From IMG/VR virus record IMGVR_UViG_3300009034_000093, positions 1 through 41,792 of that record: a stretch of 41,792 nt of DNA, one strand, 5' to 3'. This DNA is from a virus. A program made the translations under genes and the position numbers. The notes under the pieces were generated by a model. It worked only from the letters and a program-made list of their open reading frames with translations, had not been told where the DNA came from and searched no databases. This document shows positions 7,140-18,534 of this stretch, piece after piece. The first letter of the stretch is position 1, and each line of letters begins with the position of its first letter.

Positions 7140-7373
7140 TTAGTCCGTTGGCCTTCTATGGTAGCGTGCGGCACGCTGTTGGATATCTTCTTGAAATTCC
7201 GATGTCACGATATGCGGAAGCTTGTTCCGGTTCATAGACACGTGCACGCGGTCCAACAGTTCACCCGTATTGGTGTGAATGAGGATGTCCACCACACGGA
7301 AGAATTGGTCCCCCGTGTCTAGAATTTGAACCTTTACCGGTTCCATGTCGGGGATATGAATGGTGATGATCAC
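7140..7373 (-). CDS. hypothetical protein, 77 aa, coupled to terminase
   Basis: A small beta-rich protein (IITIHIPDMEPVKVQILDTG, then FRVVDILIHTNTGELLDRV) of unknown function. I place the start at GTG 7373-7371, which overlaps the TGA of the large terminase gene as GTGA and has AGGA about 10 nt upstream; a longer frame starting with TTG at 7397 is possible. A basic C-terminus ends in RRPTD. It sits between terminase and the MuF-like gene, so a minor packaging or head role is possible but not shown. Confidence 0.6.
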   Translation of the reverse strand: MIITIHIPDMEPVKVQILDTGDQFFRVVDILIHTNTGELLDRVHVSMNRNKLPHIVTSEFQEDIQQRAARYHRRPTD

Positions 7374-8884
7374 CGGTCCCAATTCCTGTGAATCCAATCT
7401 GATCCACGTTGCATCCAGCTTTTTGCATTTTGAACCACATTCTTGGAAGCGGGTACCGCGTACACTGGGTTGGTCATAATGTTACGGTACATGTGTTCAG
7501 CCGCATCACACAAGTCCAAAGTCTCTCCCGGATACTCCATGAATTCACGTATGCACTCGCGCATGCCATCGTCTTGTCCGGGTTCATCGGGAAACTTGAT
7601 CTTGTGGTTGGACATGGGCGGGTTCAACGTGCCGGTAATCCGTGCTTGCTTGTCACCCTTGGCCGGGGACGGACGAATTGGAATGGGACCCTCCCCAATC
7701 AACATGGCACGATAGATGGTGCCGAAACTTATTTCTTCCATGAACATGGATTTTGGATGCCAACGTTGATGAGTTGCTTTCACTTCTTCCATGACCTTGT
7801 TTGGTCCCCACCGTCCACATTTGGCCCCTACAAAGAAAGCATCATGGTTGGGGAATATGGCCGCGGTTACTATCGCCGTTCGGGATCCACCCTTCAATTT
7901 CTTTTCACTGGTAGCCGGGTCAATGCCGGTGGCCATCGTCACGGGATATCCCATGATCGTGAATTGTCCCGCTATATAGTCCAACGTCTTATATGTGTAA
8001 TATTCCGGCATTGGCAACATGCGGTCTTCATCCATTACGTCTCTCAATTGATACTGCCGCGCAAATACCAGCGGTGCCCGTTTCTTTTCCAGCACACGGC
8101 GCCATGGCCACGCTTCCGGCCATTGTACCTTCCGGTTTTCCTCATCAATGACCAGTGGCCACCGCTTGGACATGAAGCGTGAATCTTTCCGCAACCGGTT
8201 GGGTAGATCGTCGTTGTGGTAAGTCGTGTGAACGGCCACTACCGCCGCGTTGTCTTTCAATGCCGGTTCCACCACATGGTTGAAGGCGTCCGCTTGTCTG
8301 TCCCGTTGCAACCTACTGGTTACATACAGGGGTGACGTGGTGTCGTTCAAGATTACAAACGTTAACCGTGCACCCGGCTTGAATGATGTCAGGCTACTTG
8401 CTTGAAGAGTGGGGTTAACCACGTCTGTGGCACCGTCTAAGATGATTCGGTCCGCATCCCACACCGCACCCTTTTTAGGGTTGAAGTCTTGTTTGATCAA
8501 GGCGTTACGGGTTAGCTCGTATTTGATCTGTCGTAAGTTGGCACGTGCTTCTTCATCCGTCACACCAAGCACCGCGCCGTGCTCGTCTTCACCCGGCTGA
8601 CCTTGAGTCTGCATCCACAACCACAAACATATCCGCCACAGCGGATAGCCTTCCGCCCATATGGTAGACTTGGCGCTTTCCCGGTGCGCTTGAAAATTGA
8701 AGAAGCGTTGCACGGCGGGGTCCATCACGGCTACCTCATCCCATTCTTTGTGCATGGATGCATAGGGCAGCGGCACGCGGTGTGGCTGGTATCGCTTCAT
8801 GAAAGCAAGTAGGCTGGAAATGCCTTCTTCGAAAGAAGGAATACTGGAATTTGATTCAACCTTTCGTTCAATCTTCTTCGACAA
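7370..8884 (-). CDS. terminase large subunit
   Basis: A 504-aa packaging motor with an N-terminal ATPase and C-terminal nuclease. A Walker A-like motif, HRESAKST, lies at 67-74 and is preceded by the adenine-binding-like FNFQ. The Walker B strand is FVILND (176-181), where Asn replaces the first Asp usually seen, and VHTTYHN (219-224) resembles the coupling motif. The nuclease half has GIDPA (D322), FMEEISFG (about 381-388) and an Asp-rich PGQDDGMRE segment, matching the RNase H-like fold. The gene starts with TTG at 8884, overlapping the small subunit gene by 17 bp, with GAAGGG upstream. It is followed with GTGA overlap by a 77-aa gene. Confidence 0.9.
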   Translation of the reverse strand: MSKKIERKVESNSSIPSFEEGISSLLAFMKRYQPHRVPLPYASMHKEWDEVAVMDPAVQRFFNFQAHRESAKSTIWAEGYPLWRICLWLWMQTQGQPGEDEHGAVLGVTDEEARANLRQIKYELTRNALIKQDFNPKKGAVWDADRIILDGATDVVNPTLQASSLTSFKPGARLTFVILNDTTSPLYVTSRLQRDRQADAFNHVVEPALKDNAAVVAVHTTYHNDDLPNRLRKDSRFMSKRWPLVIDEENRKVQWPEAWPWRRVLEKKRAPLVFARQYQLRDVMDEDRMLPMPEYYTYKTLDYIAGQFTIMGYPVTMATGIDPATSEKKLKGGSRTAIVTAAIFPNHDAFFVGAKCGRWGPNKVMEEVKATHQRWHPKSMFMEEISFGTIYRAMLIGEGPIPIRPSPAKGDKQARITGTLNPPMSNHKIKFPDEPGQDDGMRECIREFMEYPGETLDLCDAAEHMYRNIMTNPVYAVPASKNVVQNAKSWMQRGSDWIHRNWDR

Positions 8885-12087: not shown

Positions 12088-15000
12088 TCATTTGTCGAAT
12101 TCCTCCGGTATATCAAGCGTTTCAGCTTGAGTTGAGGTTCCTAACCCCCCCGGCGCAACCCCCCGGAAGAACTCCGGGTGCGCCCGGACAAACCGGCGTA
12201 GAAACTTGTTGAACTTGGGTTTCTTCACATACCCCCGGATGTCCGTGGCCACCATGTTAAACCGCTTCAAAAATCGAATGATGGTGGACGTAGTGTCCAA
12301 AGAGCATCCCACTTGTTCCGCAAGGTCTTCCCGGCGGATGAACTCAGCCACCCGCAGAACCATGACCGCTTTTGGAAAGTTGTTTTTCTCCTCACCGCCC
12401 GGAGTATACGCACGTTCATTCTTCCATTTCTCCAAGAATTCCCTTTCGATTTCCTCATAGTCTAATAGCTGACTTCCAAGCTTCTGAATTTCAGAGTAAT
12501 CATCAAGGCCACAATTGTCATGCCGGTAGATGGCATCCAAGAACTTTGCGGCCATGTCCACGTGCATCGTCTTCACAATCAACAGGGTGAAAGCGTCATC
12601 CGTGGAAACCTGTAGCGCGGCAATGGACGCGGCAATCCGGGCAAGCTTCTTCCGGAAGTCCGATAGCGTGATCAACGGAATGTCCACGGCATAGCCAAAG
12701 AATTCCGTCATTTCCTTGGCCTTGTTCAGGCATGCATCTTCCGCGCCATCACTGAACACCACCTGTTCCGGTCGGAGGTTCCACACCCAGAATACGAGGG
12801 ACCGCAACATCACCGGCGTGATTTTGGGGTGCGCGTCTGCATCGGATTTCCGGTTGATGAAAGAAAGGTCTTTCAAGTCACCCACGTTGGCAAACACCGC
12901 AAAGTCCGTCCGACGGATGATGGTTGGCGGAAACAACCTCTTCATGGACTCGCACCCGAAGGAAAACGTATCCATGACCTGATCCTTCCGCGGGTTGGCT
13001 ATCATCAGTAGGCGCGTTTGACTTTCGTACCCGCGGGACTGCACGCGGTCAATTTGCAAGAAGCCTTCTTCCATGGCCTTGGAAATGGTACGCATGTCCC
13101 ACTCCGGAAGGTATTGCGCTTCATCCACCGTCAGAATCTTCCGGGAATTTGCAGGGTAGCGGCCAACGCGGACTTGCCAACCCTTCTGTTGATGCTCCAC
13201 CAAGGCATAGGCTAGGCCGGTACGGGATCCCGTTAGACCGGAAAGAATGTCCCCGATGTTCACAAACTCAGAGAACCTTTGGTATGTCTGTGTCTTGCCG
13301 GATCCTGAATCCCCGATGACCAACGCCACAATCCACCCGCGGATGATCTCGCCGTTAAACCGGATCCACCGCGGGGACAGGTAGGTAAACAAGACCGCCA
13401 ACAGAATTTCATCACGTTCATAAACGCGGGTAACGTTCCGGGTAAGGTCATCCAACATGGCGTTCCATCCGATAGCCTTGAAGTCCCGCAGATGTGGCAA
13501 CGCTTCCTTCAACTGGAACCCTTCATAGTCATCCTCTAGCGGTTCCATTTCCTCTATGAGCATAGTTACCTGCTGCGTCTTGGGATGGCTCTTGATCCAT
13601 CCAGTAGCCATGTAGTTCCCCGGCTTGGGATGCTCTGATGAAAGATGATAGACTCGCTTCTCCATCAACTCTTGCTTTTTGCCATCAATCACTTGGTTGA
13701 TATTGCCGTCATCGTCCCGGATTTGAGTTAGACGGTTCACCCGCTGGTGACAGAAGAACTCTTTGATGGTGGTACGCTTCAAGATTTCAATAGCTGGTTT
13801 CTGTCCGTGCTTGCATGCAAAATCCCGAATCATTCCCTTCACCTGAACGTTGGATGACATGCACGACCCTATGAACTCCTGTGCGCCACGCGGCAAGGCG
13901 TAGTCACCAGACATGTTCTTGCAATCGAAGCATGACCCTTTGGCCATCCGTTGACATGACGTAACCTTGAACTCTTCCACGGCATGGAAAGCTTCCGATG
14001 TTTCCCCGCACACCGTGATAGGAACACGCACGCGCCGGTCTATCAAATCCTTCCGTTCAACCTCCGTGAACGATTCAAGCTCAATGGCCTCTTCCTCTTG
14101 CTTCTTGGCCTTGTAGTCATGTGGGGGTGTGTCTTCAATCAGCTTTTGGAAGTTGGCCACGGACAACCCACGCTTGTGGAAATAGTCCGTGATGTCTTTG
14201 TCATCCTTAGCCCCACGCAATGGCAACCGAATGTTCCGGATGGATTCTGTTTCCGCGCCACGGAAACCTTCAACAAGGGATGCGGCTGCTTTCTGCCCTT
14301 CTTGGTCACAGTCGAGAACCACCACCACGTTCTTGCCCTTGAAGAATCGGAACCATTCCGGCCGAAAGACTGAACACCCGTGCGTCCCGGTGACGGCCGT
14401 GTATCCCTCTTGCTGTAGCAACATACGGTCCCACTCGCCTTCACAGACAACCACCCACTTGCCAAGGTGTTTAACTAGCTCATCCACGCCATACAGCCGC
14501 GCCGGGGATCCGTACTTATGGACGCCTTCCGTGTAGTTGATCATCTTGGCGTCTTTCCTTGCGTTGTACAACCGGACGTTCACGATGTTGCCGCGTTCAT
14601 CCCGAATGGGAATGGTGTTGCGTTGCCGCTTGGCGTCCCACCCCACTTGGTACTTCTTCAAGGTCATGTCCGTGAAGCCACGCTTTTCCCGTAGCCACCG
14701 CAAGGCAGGTTCATTGGTCCACAGCGCGGTTTCCCAACCCTTCACCAAGTCTTCCCGGATGGGTGGGCGCTGTGGCTTGTCGGCCGCGGCCGGACGGGGG
14801 ACGCCGTACTTGTCACCAAGGTCAAGAAGAACATCCTTGAAACTTTGGCCGGTGGTCTGCATGATGAAGTCCAGCGGACCGCCCTTGCCGCATCCGGCAA
14901 AGCAGCGCCACCGGCCGGTTTTCCGATTGAAGCCAAAGGATGGTTCCTTGTCCGCATGCAACGGACACAAAGCCACCATCCAATCATCCCCGGACGGTTT

Positions 15001-15102
15001 GGGATCCTTGAGGTATTCCCCAAAGACCGCCGCAAAGTCTGTGACTTTACCTAGGACGGTTTCTTTGTAGAATTTCCATGCATTGTTGTCATCATTGGCC
15101 AT
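12088..15102 (-). CDS. primase fused to MCM-type AAA+ helicase
   Basis: A 1004-aa multidomain replication protein. Residues about 1-100 form a CHC2 zinc-binding primase domain (CPLH at 46-49, C67 and C71 in RCFAGCGKGG). A Toprim domain follows with CEGEWD (E221) and VVVLDCDQEG (D264, D266). Residues about 350-530 contain a Cys/His cluster (C383, C391, C394, C414, C430, C451, H452) that may bind zinc. The C-terminal AAA+ module has Walker A GDSGSGKT (597-604), Walker B ILTVDEAQ (656-663), an MCM-like insert EEGFLQIDRVQSRGYES, sensor IANP (701-704) and arginine pair IIRRTDF (730-731). This pattern is MCM, not the DnaB/gp4 RecA-like fold usual in phages. A winged-helix-like tail ends near 985. 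ATG 15102 overlaps the upstream TGA. It likely primes and unwinds DNA at the phage fork. Confidence 0.85.
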   Translation of the reverse strand: MANDDNNAWKFYKETVLGKVTDFAAVFGEYLKDPKPSGDDWMVALCPLHADKEPSFGFNRKTGRWRCFAGCGKGGPLDFIMQTTGQSFKDVLLDLGDKYGVPRPAAADKPQRPPIREDLVKGWETALWTNEPALRWLREKRGFTDMTLKKYQVGWDAKRQRNTIPIRDERGNIVNVRLYNARKDAKMINYTEGVHKYGSPARLYGVDELVKHLGKWVVVCEGEWDRMLLQQEGYTAVTGTHGCSVFRPEWFRFFKGKNVVVVLDCDQEGQKAAASLVEGFRGAETESIRNIRLPLRGAKDDKDITDYFHKRGLSVANFQKLIEDTPPHDYKAKKQEEEAIELESFTEVERKDLIDRRVRVPITVCGETSEAFHAVEEFKVTSCQRMAKGSCFDCKNMSGDYALPRGAQEFIGSCMSSNVQVKGMIRDFACKHGQKPAIEILKRTTIKEFFCHQRVNRLTQIRDDDGNINQVIDGKKQELMEKRVYHLSSEHPKPGNYMATGWIKSHPKTQQVTMLIEEMEPLEDDYEGFQLKEALPHLRDFKAIGWNAMLDDLTRNVTRVYERDEILLAVLFTYLSPRWIRFNGEIIRGWIVALVIGDSGSGKTQTYQRFSEFVNIGDILSGLTGSRTGLAYALVEHQQKGWQVRVGRYPANSRKILTVDEAQYLPEWDMRTISKAMEEGFLQIDRVQSRGYESQTRLLMIANPRKDQVMDTFSFGCESMKRLFPPTIIRRTDFAVFANVGDLKDLSFINRKSDADAHPKITPVMLRSLVFWVWNLRPEQVVFSDGAEDACLNKAKEMTEFFGYAVDIPLITLSDFRKKLARIAASIAALQVSTDDAFTLLIVKTMHVDMAAKFLDAIYRHDNCGLDDYSEIQKLGSQLLDYEEIEREFLEKWKNERAYTPGGEEKNNFPKAVMVLRVAEFIRREDLAEQVGCSLDTTSTIIRFLKRFNMVATDIRGYVKKPKFNKFLRRFVRAHPEFFRGVAPGGLGTSTQAETLDIPEEFDK

Positions 15103-15350
15103 CAACCACTAACCTTGGGATAGTCTGGCTTAGGATCACCACACAACATAGTGTCCATATTGCGTATAGGGCTATCCCACATCTTCAACATTTCTCCAAA
15201 GTGAACGCTCATAGTTCCGGCCATTGTTTTCATGTGCCTTACCCATTCCAGTGCTTGGCCTTTGTCCCGCGTGGTGGTAATACTCATTTCTTGGCGTCCA
15301 CTCTCACGCCACACGCGCACAACAAGCCACCACCGTTCACGCTTCTTCAT
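15102..15350 (-). CDS. hypothetical protein, 82 aa
   Basis: A small basic protein starting MKKRERWWLVVRVWRESGR, with alternating hydrophobic residues suggestive of a beta-sheet and an amphipathic helix after it. The ATG at 15350 has GGAAGG 9 nt upstream and overlaps the stop of the upstream zinc-finger gene by 14 bp; its own TGA overlaps the primase-helicase ATG. Function unknown; tight coupling to the helicase gene suggests a replication accessory but nothing more specific can be said. Confidence 0.6.
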   Translation of the reverse strand: MKKRERWWLVVRVWRESGRQEMSITTTRDKGQALEWVRHMKTMAGTMSVHFGEMLKMWDSPIRNMDTMLCGDPKPDYPKVSG

Positions 15351-15504: not shown

Positions 15505-15739
15505 ATTTTCCCTCCCGGATTTCCCGTTGCGCTTGATCCCACGCAGCCCAAGCTTCATTCACCCCATCATGTTTCAGGTACGAACACTGACAAGATATTT
15601 TGGTGGTCAATGATAACCCCTGTCCAATCACCAAGCTTATCAATGGCATGTCGCCACATCGTTGACAAGCTTCATGCCCAAAGTCCTCCCACTCCTCATC
15701 AGTCAATGTAATGCCCGCTGGCTTTGGACATGTTGTCAT
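15488..15739 (-). CDS. hypothetical protein, 83 aa
   Basis: Contains HEACQRCGDMP and SCQCSYL cysteine pairs that could form a zinc site, followed by a helical tail (NEAWAAWDQAQREIREGK). ATG 15739 overlaps the TGA of the deoxyribosyltransferase-like gene by 4 nt. It overlaps the next gene by 17 bp. Function unknown; one of several cysteine-pair proteins in this early cluster. Confidence 0.6.
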   Translation of the reverse strand: MTTCPKPAGITLTDEEWEDFGHEACQRCGDMPLISLVIGQGLSLTTKISCQCSYLKHDGVNEAWAAWDQAQREIREGKYGQVT

Positions 15740-16194
15740 GATTGATCCTGATCTTCTTTTGCCAACTGTTGTTCCAACTCCTCATCCACGATGGCCGCAC
15801 GCAACTGACACGCGCTAGTCACCAACGTTCCCATTTTGTACATGACATCCGGCCGCTGTGGATCCTGCTGGTAGATGATCAATTCCTTCCCGGCGCCAAC
15901 ACCCCATCCCGCTTCCATGTGTGCGCTACTCCCGCACGGACAAACCATCACCACCATGTCCGCTTCTCTTAATGCAGTCATGTCCGCGGCATAGGCGGCA
16001 ACAGTTGGCTTCTCTCCTAGAAGTTTTTGATGAACGGCCGGGTGAATGGTATCCACGTGGTGTCCCGGCAAAAGGTCTTCCCATTTGAAACTATTTTTCC
16101 GGAAGTCATACACATCATGGCCCATGTCCCGGAGTAACGCCAACACGGATGGGAAGTGTTTGTTGTTCCATCGGCTAGCCACATATATTTTCAT
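15736..16194 (-). CDS. nucleoside 2-deoxyribosyltransferase-like protein
   Basis: A 152-aa protein with the Rossmann-like layout of the nucleoside 2-deoxyribosyltransferase / DUF4406 group. It begins MKIYVASRWNNKHFPSVLA, the typical first strand and helix, and has ADMVVMVCPCGSSAHMEAGW, where Asp, Ser and Glu of the D...S...E signature are visible, then GKELIIY. Such enzymes exchange or hydrolyse the base of deoxynucleosides and may feed nucleotide salvage or base modification. ATG 16194 follows AAAAAGGAGAACGC, a strong ribosome site. It is the first gene after a 93-bp gap. Confidence 0.7.
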   Translation of the reverse strand: MKIYVASRWNNKHFPSVLALLRDMGHDVYDFRKNSFKWEDLLPGHHVDTIHPAVHQKLLGEKPTVAAYAADMTALREADMVVMVCPCGSSAHMEAGWGVGAGKELIIYQQDPQRPDVMYKMGTLVTSACQLRAAIVDEELEQQLAKEDQDQS

Positions 16195-16812: not shown

Positions 16813-18534
16813 TCACTTGAATGAAACCATGTTCATGATGTCTGCTAACTTCACCATGGTGCCATCCATGATAGCCAACCCATTCCGGCGTAACGTCCCA
16901 AGGTAATTCCGAAAGCTTCCGGATGGGTAAGCCATTCCTGATTCTGTCCCCAAGCCTTCTTGTGAAATGCTCTTACCGTGTAGTCCAAGAAGCACGTCAA
17001 ACATTCGACGTTCTCCCGCTTGCAACTTATCCTTCCACGCGGCAATAACTTCATCATGATTCAATGGCATGTTGTCTATGCCGAATGGAATTGAATTCAA
17101 ATGTACACGTCCACCCGCCACCATTGTCACGTACTTCAACCGGCGCAGCTTGCCAAAGTAGTTCCGCGTGGTTCCACTGTTGGGCGCCAATCCTGATAAG
17201 GTGGCCAACTGGGTGGTGTCCAAGGAATCCGGTTGGACCTTGGCCAACACTTCCACCATGCGCCGTTCACCGGCCATCAGCTTGTCTGCATCATCTACAG
17301 CCACAACCGGATCCCTCTTCACCTTCACCGGCACCGTTGGCGTCACCATTGTTTCCTTTGCGGCCGGTTTGAGTTCTTCAAACTCCTCCCGCGGCTTCAT
17401 GGCATCCGTCAACTTAGCCAACGTAGGCAACAACGTGTCCATGGTTACACCCAACCACTTGATACTCTTTCGCGCATCCGCAATGCCCTTGATCAACTTG
17501 CCTAGCTCACGCTTCCCCATGACCGGAATTTCTTTGTACACCGTTTTGATCTTTCCCATAGCCACCGGCCGGGTTGCTTTGGCCAACTTCCCTTGTAGTT
17601 CCATCACCTGCCGCTTCAATTCCCGCGGGTCATCCTGCTTGGCCCGTTCAATGGTGTCCGCTATCCTTGCCCGGATCCTGTCAAGATCCACAGCCGCCAA
17701 CCGCTTGGGTTCCCGGATACGACCACCAAACTTGGGTGTGGCGCTGGAATCGAAAGTCTCCCGCTTGTCCACCTTGATCCGCTTGAACACATCCAACCAA
17801 CCGGGGGACCAAAACCACGCTTCCCCAATGTCCAACGATGCCAACGAATCCATCATTTGCTTTCGCTTGTCCTTGTCCCCGTGAACATCAATCCAAGAAT
17901 CAATGGCGTCCCGGTCCTGTGAGGCAATGGTCCGGAGAACAATCAACACTTCCGCTTGAGTCAACACGTTCTTGTTCAATACGGCACTACGCTGTGTCAC
18001 CATCGTGATCCCAAGACCACGTGCACGACCACGGCGCACGATGTCTTCAAAGGCACCAAGCATCCTTTCCTCCCCATGGTGGGGACGTTGGGGTGCGAAA
18101 CTGTCCGCTTCATCCATGACCACGTGCAGCGGCTTCCGGTTCTTGTGATACAGACGTTCAGCCAACGCAGTCACAAACCGCATTTGTTCCGCCTTTCGGA
18201 AACGGGAGAGATCAAGCACGGCGCTGATGCGCTCATCCACCACAAGGTTGGCAATCGTTTCCCCGGCCGTGGATTCAAGGGGAACGTCTGCGTGGTCCCC
18301 GCCAAAGATGGTGATAGGAAGTCCGGCACGTTTCCCGTTGGCGCTAGACCGCAACCCCCACCACACGCCGATGGGATCCAAAATCACAACGGGGATTCCC
18401 ACCTTTAACATTTGTTCAGTGATGACCGCGGAAGTGTAAGTCTTCCCCACACCCCGCTTGGCTAGGATGGCAAAGGTTTGGGTGGCCGCTTCCAAGGGAA
18501 GCGATAGGCCACCCGCAATGTGAATCCGTTTCAT
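16813..18534 (-). CDS. HerA/FtsK-like ATPase with tandem winged-helix tail
   Basis: A 573-aa protein with a RecA-like motor of the HerA/FtsK (DUF87) group: AKRGVGKT (25-32), ILDPIGVWWG, and Walker B HVVMDEAD (137-144), then VRRGRARGLGITMVTQRSAV with the sensor region. A helical linker (about 290-430) follows. The C-terminus has two copies of an approximately 60-residue unit, AGERRMVEVL...FGKLRRLKYV and AGERRMFDVL...LGTLRRNGLA, that read as winged helices. HerA-type ATPases translocate DNA with a nuclease partner or segregate it; an ERCC4-type nuclease is encoded four genes upstream. ATG 18534 follows GGGGGGAACTAGT, one base after the preceding TAG. Confidence 0.8.
   Translation of the reverse strand: MKRIHIAGGLSLPLEAATQTFAILAKRGVGKTYTSAVITEQMLKVGIPVVILDPIGVWWGLRSSANGKRAGLPITIFGGDHADVPLESTAGETIANLVVDERISAVLDLSRFRKAEQMRFVTALAERLYHKNRKPLHVVMDEADSFAPQRPHHGEERMLGAFEDIVRRGRARGLGITMVTQRSAVLNKNVLTQAEVLIVLRTIASQDRDAIDSWIDVHGDKDKRKQMMDSLASLDIGEAWFWSPGWLDVFKRIKVDKRETFDSSATPKFGGRIREPKRLAAVDLDRIRARIADTIERAKQDDPRELKRQVMELQGKLAKATRPVAMGKIKTVYKEIPVMGKRELGKLIKGIADARKSIKWLGVTMDTLLPTLAKLTDAMKPREEFEELKPAAKETMVTPTVPVKVKRDPVVAVDDADKLMAGERRMVEVLAKVQPDSLDTTQLATLSGLAPNSGTTRNYFGKLRRLKYVTMVAGGRVHLNSIPFGIDNMPLNHDEVIAAWKDKLQAGERRMFDVLLGLHGKSISQEGLGTESGMAYPSGSFRNYLGTLRRNGLAIMDGTMVKLADIMNMVSFK

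Follow-up and report, generated by a model that had tools for sequence, protein, structure and literature searches.

The window, a 41.8 kb IMG/VR virus contig that was analysed over its whole length of 41,792 nucleotides, encodes a CHC2-Toprim primase of the DnaG type joined in one chain to an MCM-type helicase. This protein most likely serves a tailed phage as its replicative primase-helicase, in which an MCM ring works together with a DnaG-type primase. The fusion had been predicted from the sequence, and Pfam, the PDB search and structural models now agree on it. In cells, DnaG is paired with DnaB and the archaeo-eukaryotic primase (AEP) with MCM, which is a classic mark separating the bacterial from the archaeal/eukaryotic replisome.

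The open reading frame spans 12088-15105 on the minus strand, begins with TTG-ATG and overlaps with its start the stop of the upstream gene. The likely start is the ATG at 15102, giving 1004 aa, with the in-frame TTG at 15105 as an alternative; all residue positions follow the ATG numbering. Conservation is given for a family alignment of 84 rows, 62 of them Toprim and the others including AEP fusions. The following features were assigned:

12088..15102, minus strand: Toprim primase-MCM helicase fusion, whole ORF, 1004 aa (ATG at 15102)
14800..15048, minus strand: DnaG-type CHC2 zinc ribbon, residues ~19-101, with C46, H49, C67 and C71 (Pfam and 1d0q)
14194..14451, minus strand: Toprim catalytic domain, residues ~218-303, with E223, D264, D266 and D303, and D306 just past it (Pfam, conserved residues, DnaG cores)
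13531..14091, minus strand: MCM N-tier, OB-fold part and four-cysteine site C383/C391/C394/C430, residues 338-524 (structural alignment, cysteine conservation)
12823..13530, minus strand: MCM AAA+ motor, residues 525-760 (Pfam, fold, PDB profile, hhalign)
13291..13314, minus strand: Walker A GDSGSGKT, 597-604, K603 in 84/84 rows (family alignment)
13153..13218, minus strand: helix-2 insert region GLAYALVEHQQKGWQVRVGRYP, ~629-650, modelled as two short strands (model, hhalign, alignment)
13120..13134, minus strand: Walker B LTVDE, 657-661, E661 in 83/84 rows (family alignment)
13012..13071, minus strand: pre-sensor-1 hairpin region EEGFLQIDRVQSRGYESQTR, 678-697 (PDB sequence and hhalign alignments)
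12994..12996, minus strand: sensor 1 asparagine N703, 84/84 rows (family alignment)
12910..12912, minus strand: arginine finger candidate R731 in IIRRTDF, 84/84 rows, aligned with MCM SRFDL (hhalign, alignment)
12178..12390, minus strand: C-terminal winged-helix-like domain, residues ~905-975 (model secondary structure, hhalign to the archaeal MCM C-terminus)

The record carries terminase, portal, head, tail and endolysin genes as well as a recombination/replication block with SSB, a Sak4-like recombinase, a RecD-like helicase and nucleases including an exonuclease; ERCC4 and RecB/Cas4-like nuclease genes are also found near the fusion gene. PolA and Pol III alpha are both missing on the window record, which may be a fragment, or the phage may use the host polymerase. 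Directly upstream of the primase-helicase lies a nucleoside deoxyribosyltransferase-like gene (15736-16194, minus strand). Furthermore, the early region encodes a HerA/FtsK-like ATPase of 573 aa (16813-18534, minus strand), which is not the terminase (7370-8884).

With the window protein alone as query, no close relatives were detected in viral or genome contigs; alignment queries recovered the family. At least 84 Toprim-MCM genes and 40 AEP-MCM genes were found, the latter with the architecture of BcMCM and a PriS-type primase verified by Pfam. A motor half of approximately 620 residues is common to both sets, and none of the 84 plus 40 genes contains both primases. The closest relatives of the window protein (50-70% identical) are metagenomic, one of them in an Acidobacteriota MAG, and since they retain the entire architecture, chance can be excluded as the source of the fusion. 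Approximately 45 sequenced phage records give a full-length match, many of them deposited as 'DNA primase/helicase', and Microbacterium phage Krampus, Arthrobacter phage Wollypog, Bacillus phage BSTP8 and Weizmannia phage Youna2 are cultured Toprim-MCM carriers. Hence, the fusion that the original prediction called unusual is real, but with these numbers of loci and phages it is not rare in phages. Two loci deviate from the single chain. In L073:5983-9501 (IMGVR_UViG_3300003582_000012), the Toprim-MCM gene is broken between OB tier and AAA+ motor by approximately 0.6 kb with two small ORFs in another frame, after which the motor resumes as a separate ORF, so that at this locus the motor may be a protein separate from the primase/N-tier. 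In L085:5920-9006, stop codons lie between the Toprim ORF and the MCM ORF, which points to a fusion that is split or has decayed.

A DnaB_C motor was found in none of the 39 records carrying a Toprim-MCM or AEP-MCM gene, and none is present on the window record; because no IMG/VR carrier is rated at least 90% complete, this absence is firm only for complete isolates such as Youna2, Krampus, Wollypog and BSTP8. In contrast, DnaB_C was present in all three control phages, whose Toprim primase stands alone. On the simplest reading, DnaB is replaced as fork motor by the MCM half. The C-terminal two thirds (OB/zinc N-tier, AAA+ and winged helix) would then represent a full MCM subunit, most likely of a hexameric ring, which would encircle the leading-strand template and travel 3'-5', while the N-terminal third, the zinc-ribbon/Toprim primase tethered at the fork-facing N-tier, would provide the displaced lagging strand with RNA primers. 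Hexamer, polarity, RNA priming and fork position are what we infer by analogy; the 3'-5' polarity is expected because BcMCM and MCMs in general have it, and from this polarity the ring should sit on the leading-strand template with the N-tier primase beside the displaced lagging strand.

It could be argued that host DnaB drives the fork and that the fusion protein acts as a helicase-primase in recombination or fork restart, or as an origin-melting initiator. Such a role would fit the recombination genes near the fusion gene (Sak4-like, RecD-like, ERCC4 and RecB/Cas4-like nucleases), the missing polymerase on the window record and the special circumstances, e.g. restart, proposed for the related AEP-MCM BcMCM (PMC4538821). 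Nevertheless, we consider it unlikely, since no phage DnaB motor was found in any of the 39 carrier records, lagging-strand priming suits a dedicated fused primase, and PolA or DnaE is encoded near the fusion gene in several relatives. Of 41 virus records searched, 16 encode a family A polymerase. In Youna2 (OM293949.1, 50062-51780) and BSTP8 (MW354676.1, 5704-7092) this polymerase occurs in two pieces, with the break falling near the same point of the profile (217/220), possibly as a split polymerase or through an intron/homing insertion.

The N-terminal half shows the features of a DnaG-type primase, a CHC2 zinc ribbon and a Toprim core with E..D.D. Both domains exceed the Pfam gathering cut-offs (CHC2 zinc ribbon, E 5e-13, residues 20-102; Toprim_2, E 4e-5, residues 219-304); NCBIfam dnaG matches at 7.5e-29, yet below the full-length cut-off of that model. 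The PDB sequence search with the N half matched DnaG. The AlphaFold model of the primase half alone (pLDDT 91.8) superimposes on Aquifex DnaG 2au3 (Z 21.9, 215 residues, rmsd 3.2) and on the DnaG zinc domain 1d0q (Z 13.7, 101 residues), and residues 111-340 match DnaG cores with Z of approximately 19-22. The C-terminal DnaB-binding domain of DnaG is missing; from residue 338 on the chain is MCM, i.e. the helicase is part of the same protein. An AEP (PriS-like) primase domain has no match in the window protein, which has Toprim in its place. In the family alignment, every one of the 62 Toprim rows has E223, D264 and G269, and 59 have D266. That the CHC2 zinc ligands and the Toprim acidic residues are kept across approximately 60 diverged Toprim rows implies selection for catalysis, which makes it very improbable that the primase half has lost catalysis and acts as no more than a loading or DNA-binding domain, even though the first report on BcMCM found no primase activity (PMC4538821).

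For the motor half, the Pfam evidence needs caution. The MCM P-loop profile PF00493 matches residues 559-714 over the gathering cut-off (E 2.8e-10), but it also scores over cut-off in 14 of 14 control genomes, E. coli and B. subtilis included, so this match alone would not prove an MCM. Bacterial MCM annotations that rest on PF00493 alone are, by the same token, overstated. The MCM identity is instead proven by fold and profile comparisons. In the PDB sequence search, the chains matching the C half at E below 1 were exclusively MCMs, and with a profile of nine relatives the best 60 matches were all MCM. In the AlphaFold model of the whole fusion protein (84 aligned sequences as input, pLDDT 89.2), residues 338-873 correspond to MCM 103-607 in the VIA alignment, which covers both the N-terminal OB tier and the motor. 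The same residues match SsoMCM 6mii (Z 29.0, 462 residues, rmsd 6.3) and 8x7u (Z 28.7, 461 residues, rmsd 4.0), and all 50 top entries listed are MCM. Moreover, hhalign of the family profile to MCMs of archaeal viruses and archaeal plasmids gave 99.6% probability over 465 columns, running from the OB part through to the helix-turn-helix at the C-terminus and leaving the cysteine site itself unaligned. PHROG 18685 (BcMCM-type) matches residues 332-971 (E 6e-66). Among the 50 entries listed in the structure comparison, the motor-half model had no match to RecA-fold DnaB, and the motor is thus MCM AAA+ and not of the T7 gp4/DnaB type; the MCM-like motor of the original prediction held, structure prediction having yielded neither a DnaB-like RecA fold nor a non-MCM AAA+ fold. 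A non-MCM AAA+ motor (Mg-chelatase, DUF927/Cch or SF3 type) that merely cross-matches the MCM profile could appeal to the positive control genomes and to known phage DnaG-DUF927 fusions such as FP_Epona gp22, but is hardly credible given the exclusively MCM chains in the PDB sequence search, the fold match that takes in N-tier and helicase core with the whole module best matching MCM in the Foldseek ranking, the high hhalign probability, and the lack of any Pfam match to DUF927 in the window protein at E up to 1.

The motor carries the parts expected of an MCM, i.e. AAA+ with Walker A/B, sensor 1, arginine finger, helix-2 insert and pre-sensor-1 hairpin, and before it an N-terminal OB tier with zinc site. 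Pfam MCM_OB does not match the window protein, therefore the OB assignment rests on the modelled structure. GDSGSGKT, IANP (701-704) and IIRR (728-731) had been named correctly as MCM-like motifs, and their K603, N703 and R731 are invariant. In contrast, EEGFLQID (678-685), taken for the helix-2 insert, aligns with the strand that runs into the MCM pre-sensor-1 hairpin, and the true insert lies at ~629-650; the hairpin region has a basic residue where the MCM hairpin lysine sits. The four cysteines (spacing CX7CX2CX35C) are kept in 83 of the 84 rows, AEP fusions included. Hence, the site belongs to the motor half, as the earlier suggestion that the central cluster is the MCM zinc/OB part had it.

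Across this phage family the motor is constant, and what has been exchanged is the primase ahead of it, Toprim type against the unrelated AEP type. Such an exchange within the phage primase-MCM family is well supported by sequence trees. In the motor-half tree, the well-supported branches require that the primase type changed three times or more, and separate trees of OB/Zn, AAA+ and lid/WH gave three changes each with weaker support. A tree in which the AEPs form one clade is rejected (dlnL 112, p 1.2e-6). The clearest single case of a change is the Toprim-MCM L100:4936-7911, whose motor half adjoins the AEP-MCMs L099/L101/L107 (95/80). For the lineage of the window itself an exchange is possible: its clade sits with AEP-MCMs at 100/100, apart from most Toprim-MCMs, whereas a topology grouping AEPs and L100 with the window clade outside fits without rejection (p 0.155); grouping the BcMCM-side AEPs without the window clade and L100 is weakly rejected (p 0.023). 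In the Toprim-half tree, the fused Toprims all fall together, opposite five stand-alone DnaGs (100/100), and the window clade is near-basal (83/83), and its joining with the stand-alone DnaGs also fits without rejection (p 0.378). Regarding the mode, the AEP halves find their best matches in other AEP halves, and the window Toprim is nearest to fused Toprims (143 bits; among the sampled rows, the best stand-alone primase reaches 87), which argues for exchange between already fused genes rather than for repeated new fusions. As a tentative scenario, to which we give somewhat less than even chances, the MCM motor would be a constant chassis on which Toprim and AEP were swapped in both directions by recombination between fused genes, and the window lineage would have reverted from AEP to Toprim. 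If true, an MCM fork could be primed by either of two unrelated primase superfamilies.

A widespread phage family with a DnaG-type primase-MCM, whose same motor also occurs with AEP, means that the pairing of primase and helicase is not mechanistically fixed. The family offers a means to ask which primase type a fork actually requires, and the window protein a single-chain, presumably homomeric system to test a 3'-5' fork motor with a bacterial primase. AEP-MCM fusions in bacterial elements have already been described (PMC5862659). The DnaG-type version is deposited in databases; in a partial literature search we found no paper that describes Toprim-MCM or names its motor as MCM. FP_Epona gp22, deposited as 'DnaG primase - MCM-like helicase', was considered as an earlier description and rejected, because its motor is DUF927 (7.5e-55).

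Compared with known systems, archaeal/eukaryotic MCM shares N-tier and motor fold, Walker A/B, sensor 1, arginine finger and pre-sensor-1 hairpin with the window protein, but has no fused primase and a different spacing of the zinc-site cysteines. T7 gp4 likewise fuses a CHC2 zinc ribbon and Toprim primase (Z 18.6 to the window N half) to a ring helicase; however, the motor of T7 gp4/Twinkle is RecA-fold, DnaB-type and 5'-3', whereas the AAA+ MCM of the window is expected to have the opposite polarity. Faecalibacterium phage FP_Epona gp22 (L140:2492-5248) also joins a DnaG-type zinc ribbon/primase to an AAA+ motor, but one from another AAA+ family, DUF927 with Cch HTH. The genes of Krampus (gp47), Wollypog (gp50), BSTP8 and Youna2, labelled 'DNA primase/helicase' or 'DNA primase' by their depositors with MCM unnamed, have the domain order of the window protein end to end at 25-27% identity, yet their motor half falls in another tree branch. 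The BcMCM-type AEP-MCM (Bacillus cereus prophage; PHROG 18685; Bacillus phage vB_BboS-125) has the same motor half of ~620 residues in the order OB/zinc, AAA+ and winged helix, with the primase on the N-side (~25-30% identical). BcMCM itself has 3'-5' helicase activity, and a later study found that it also acts as a primase and a polymerase (PMC4538821). Its primase, in contrast to that of the window, is an archaeo-eukaryotic one with a PriL-like helper domain, unrelated to Toprim.
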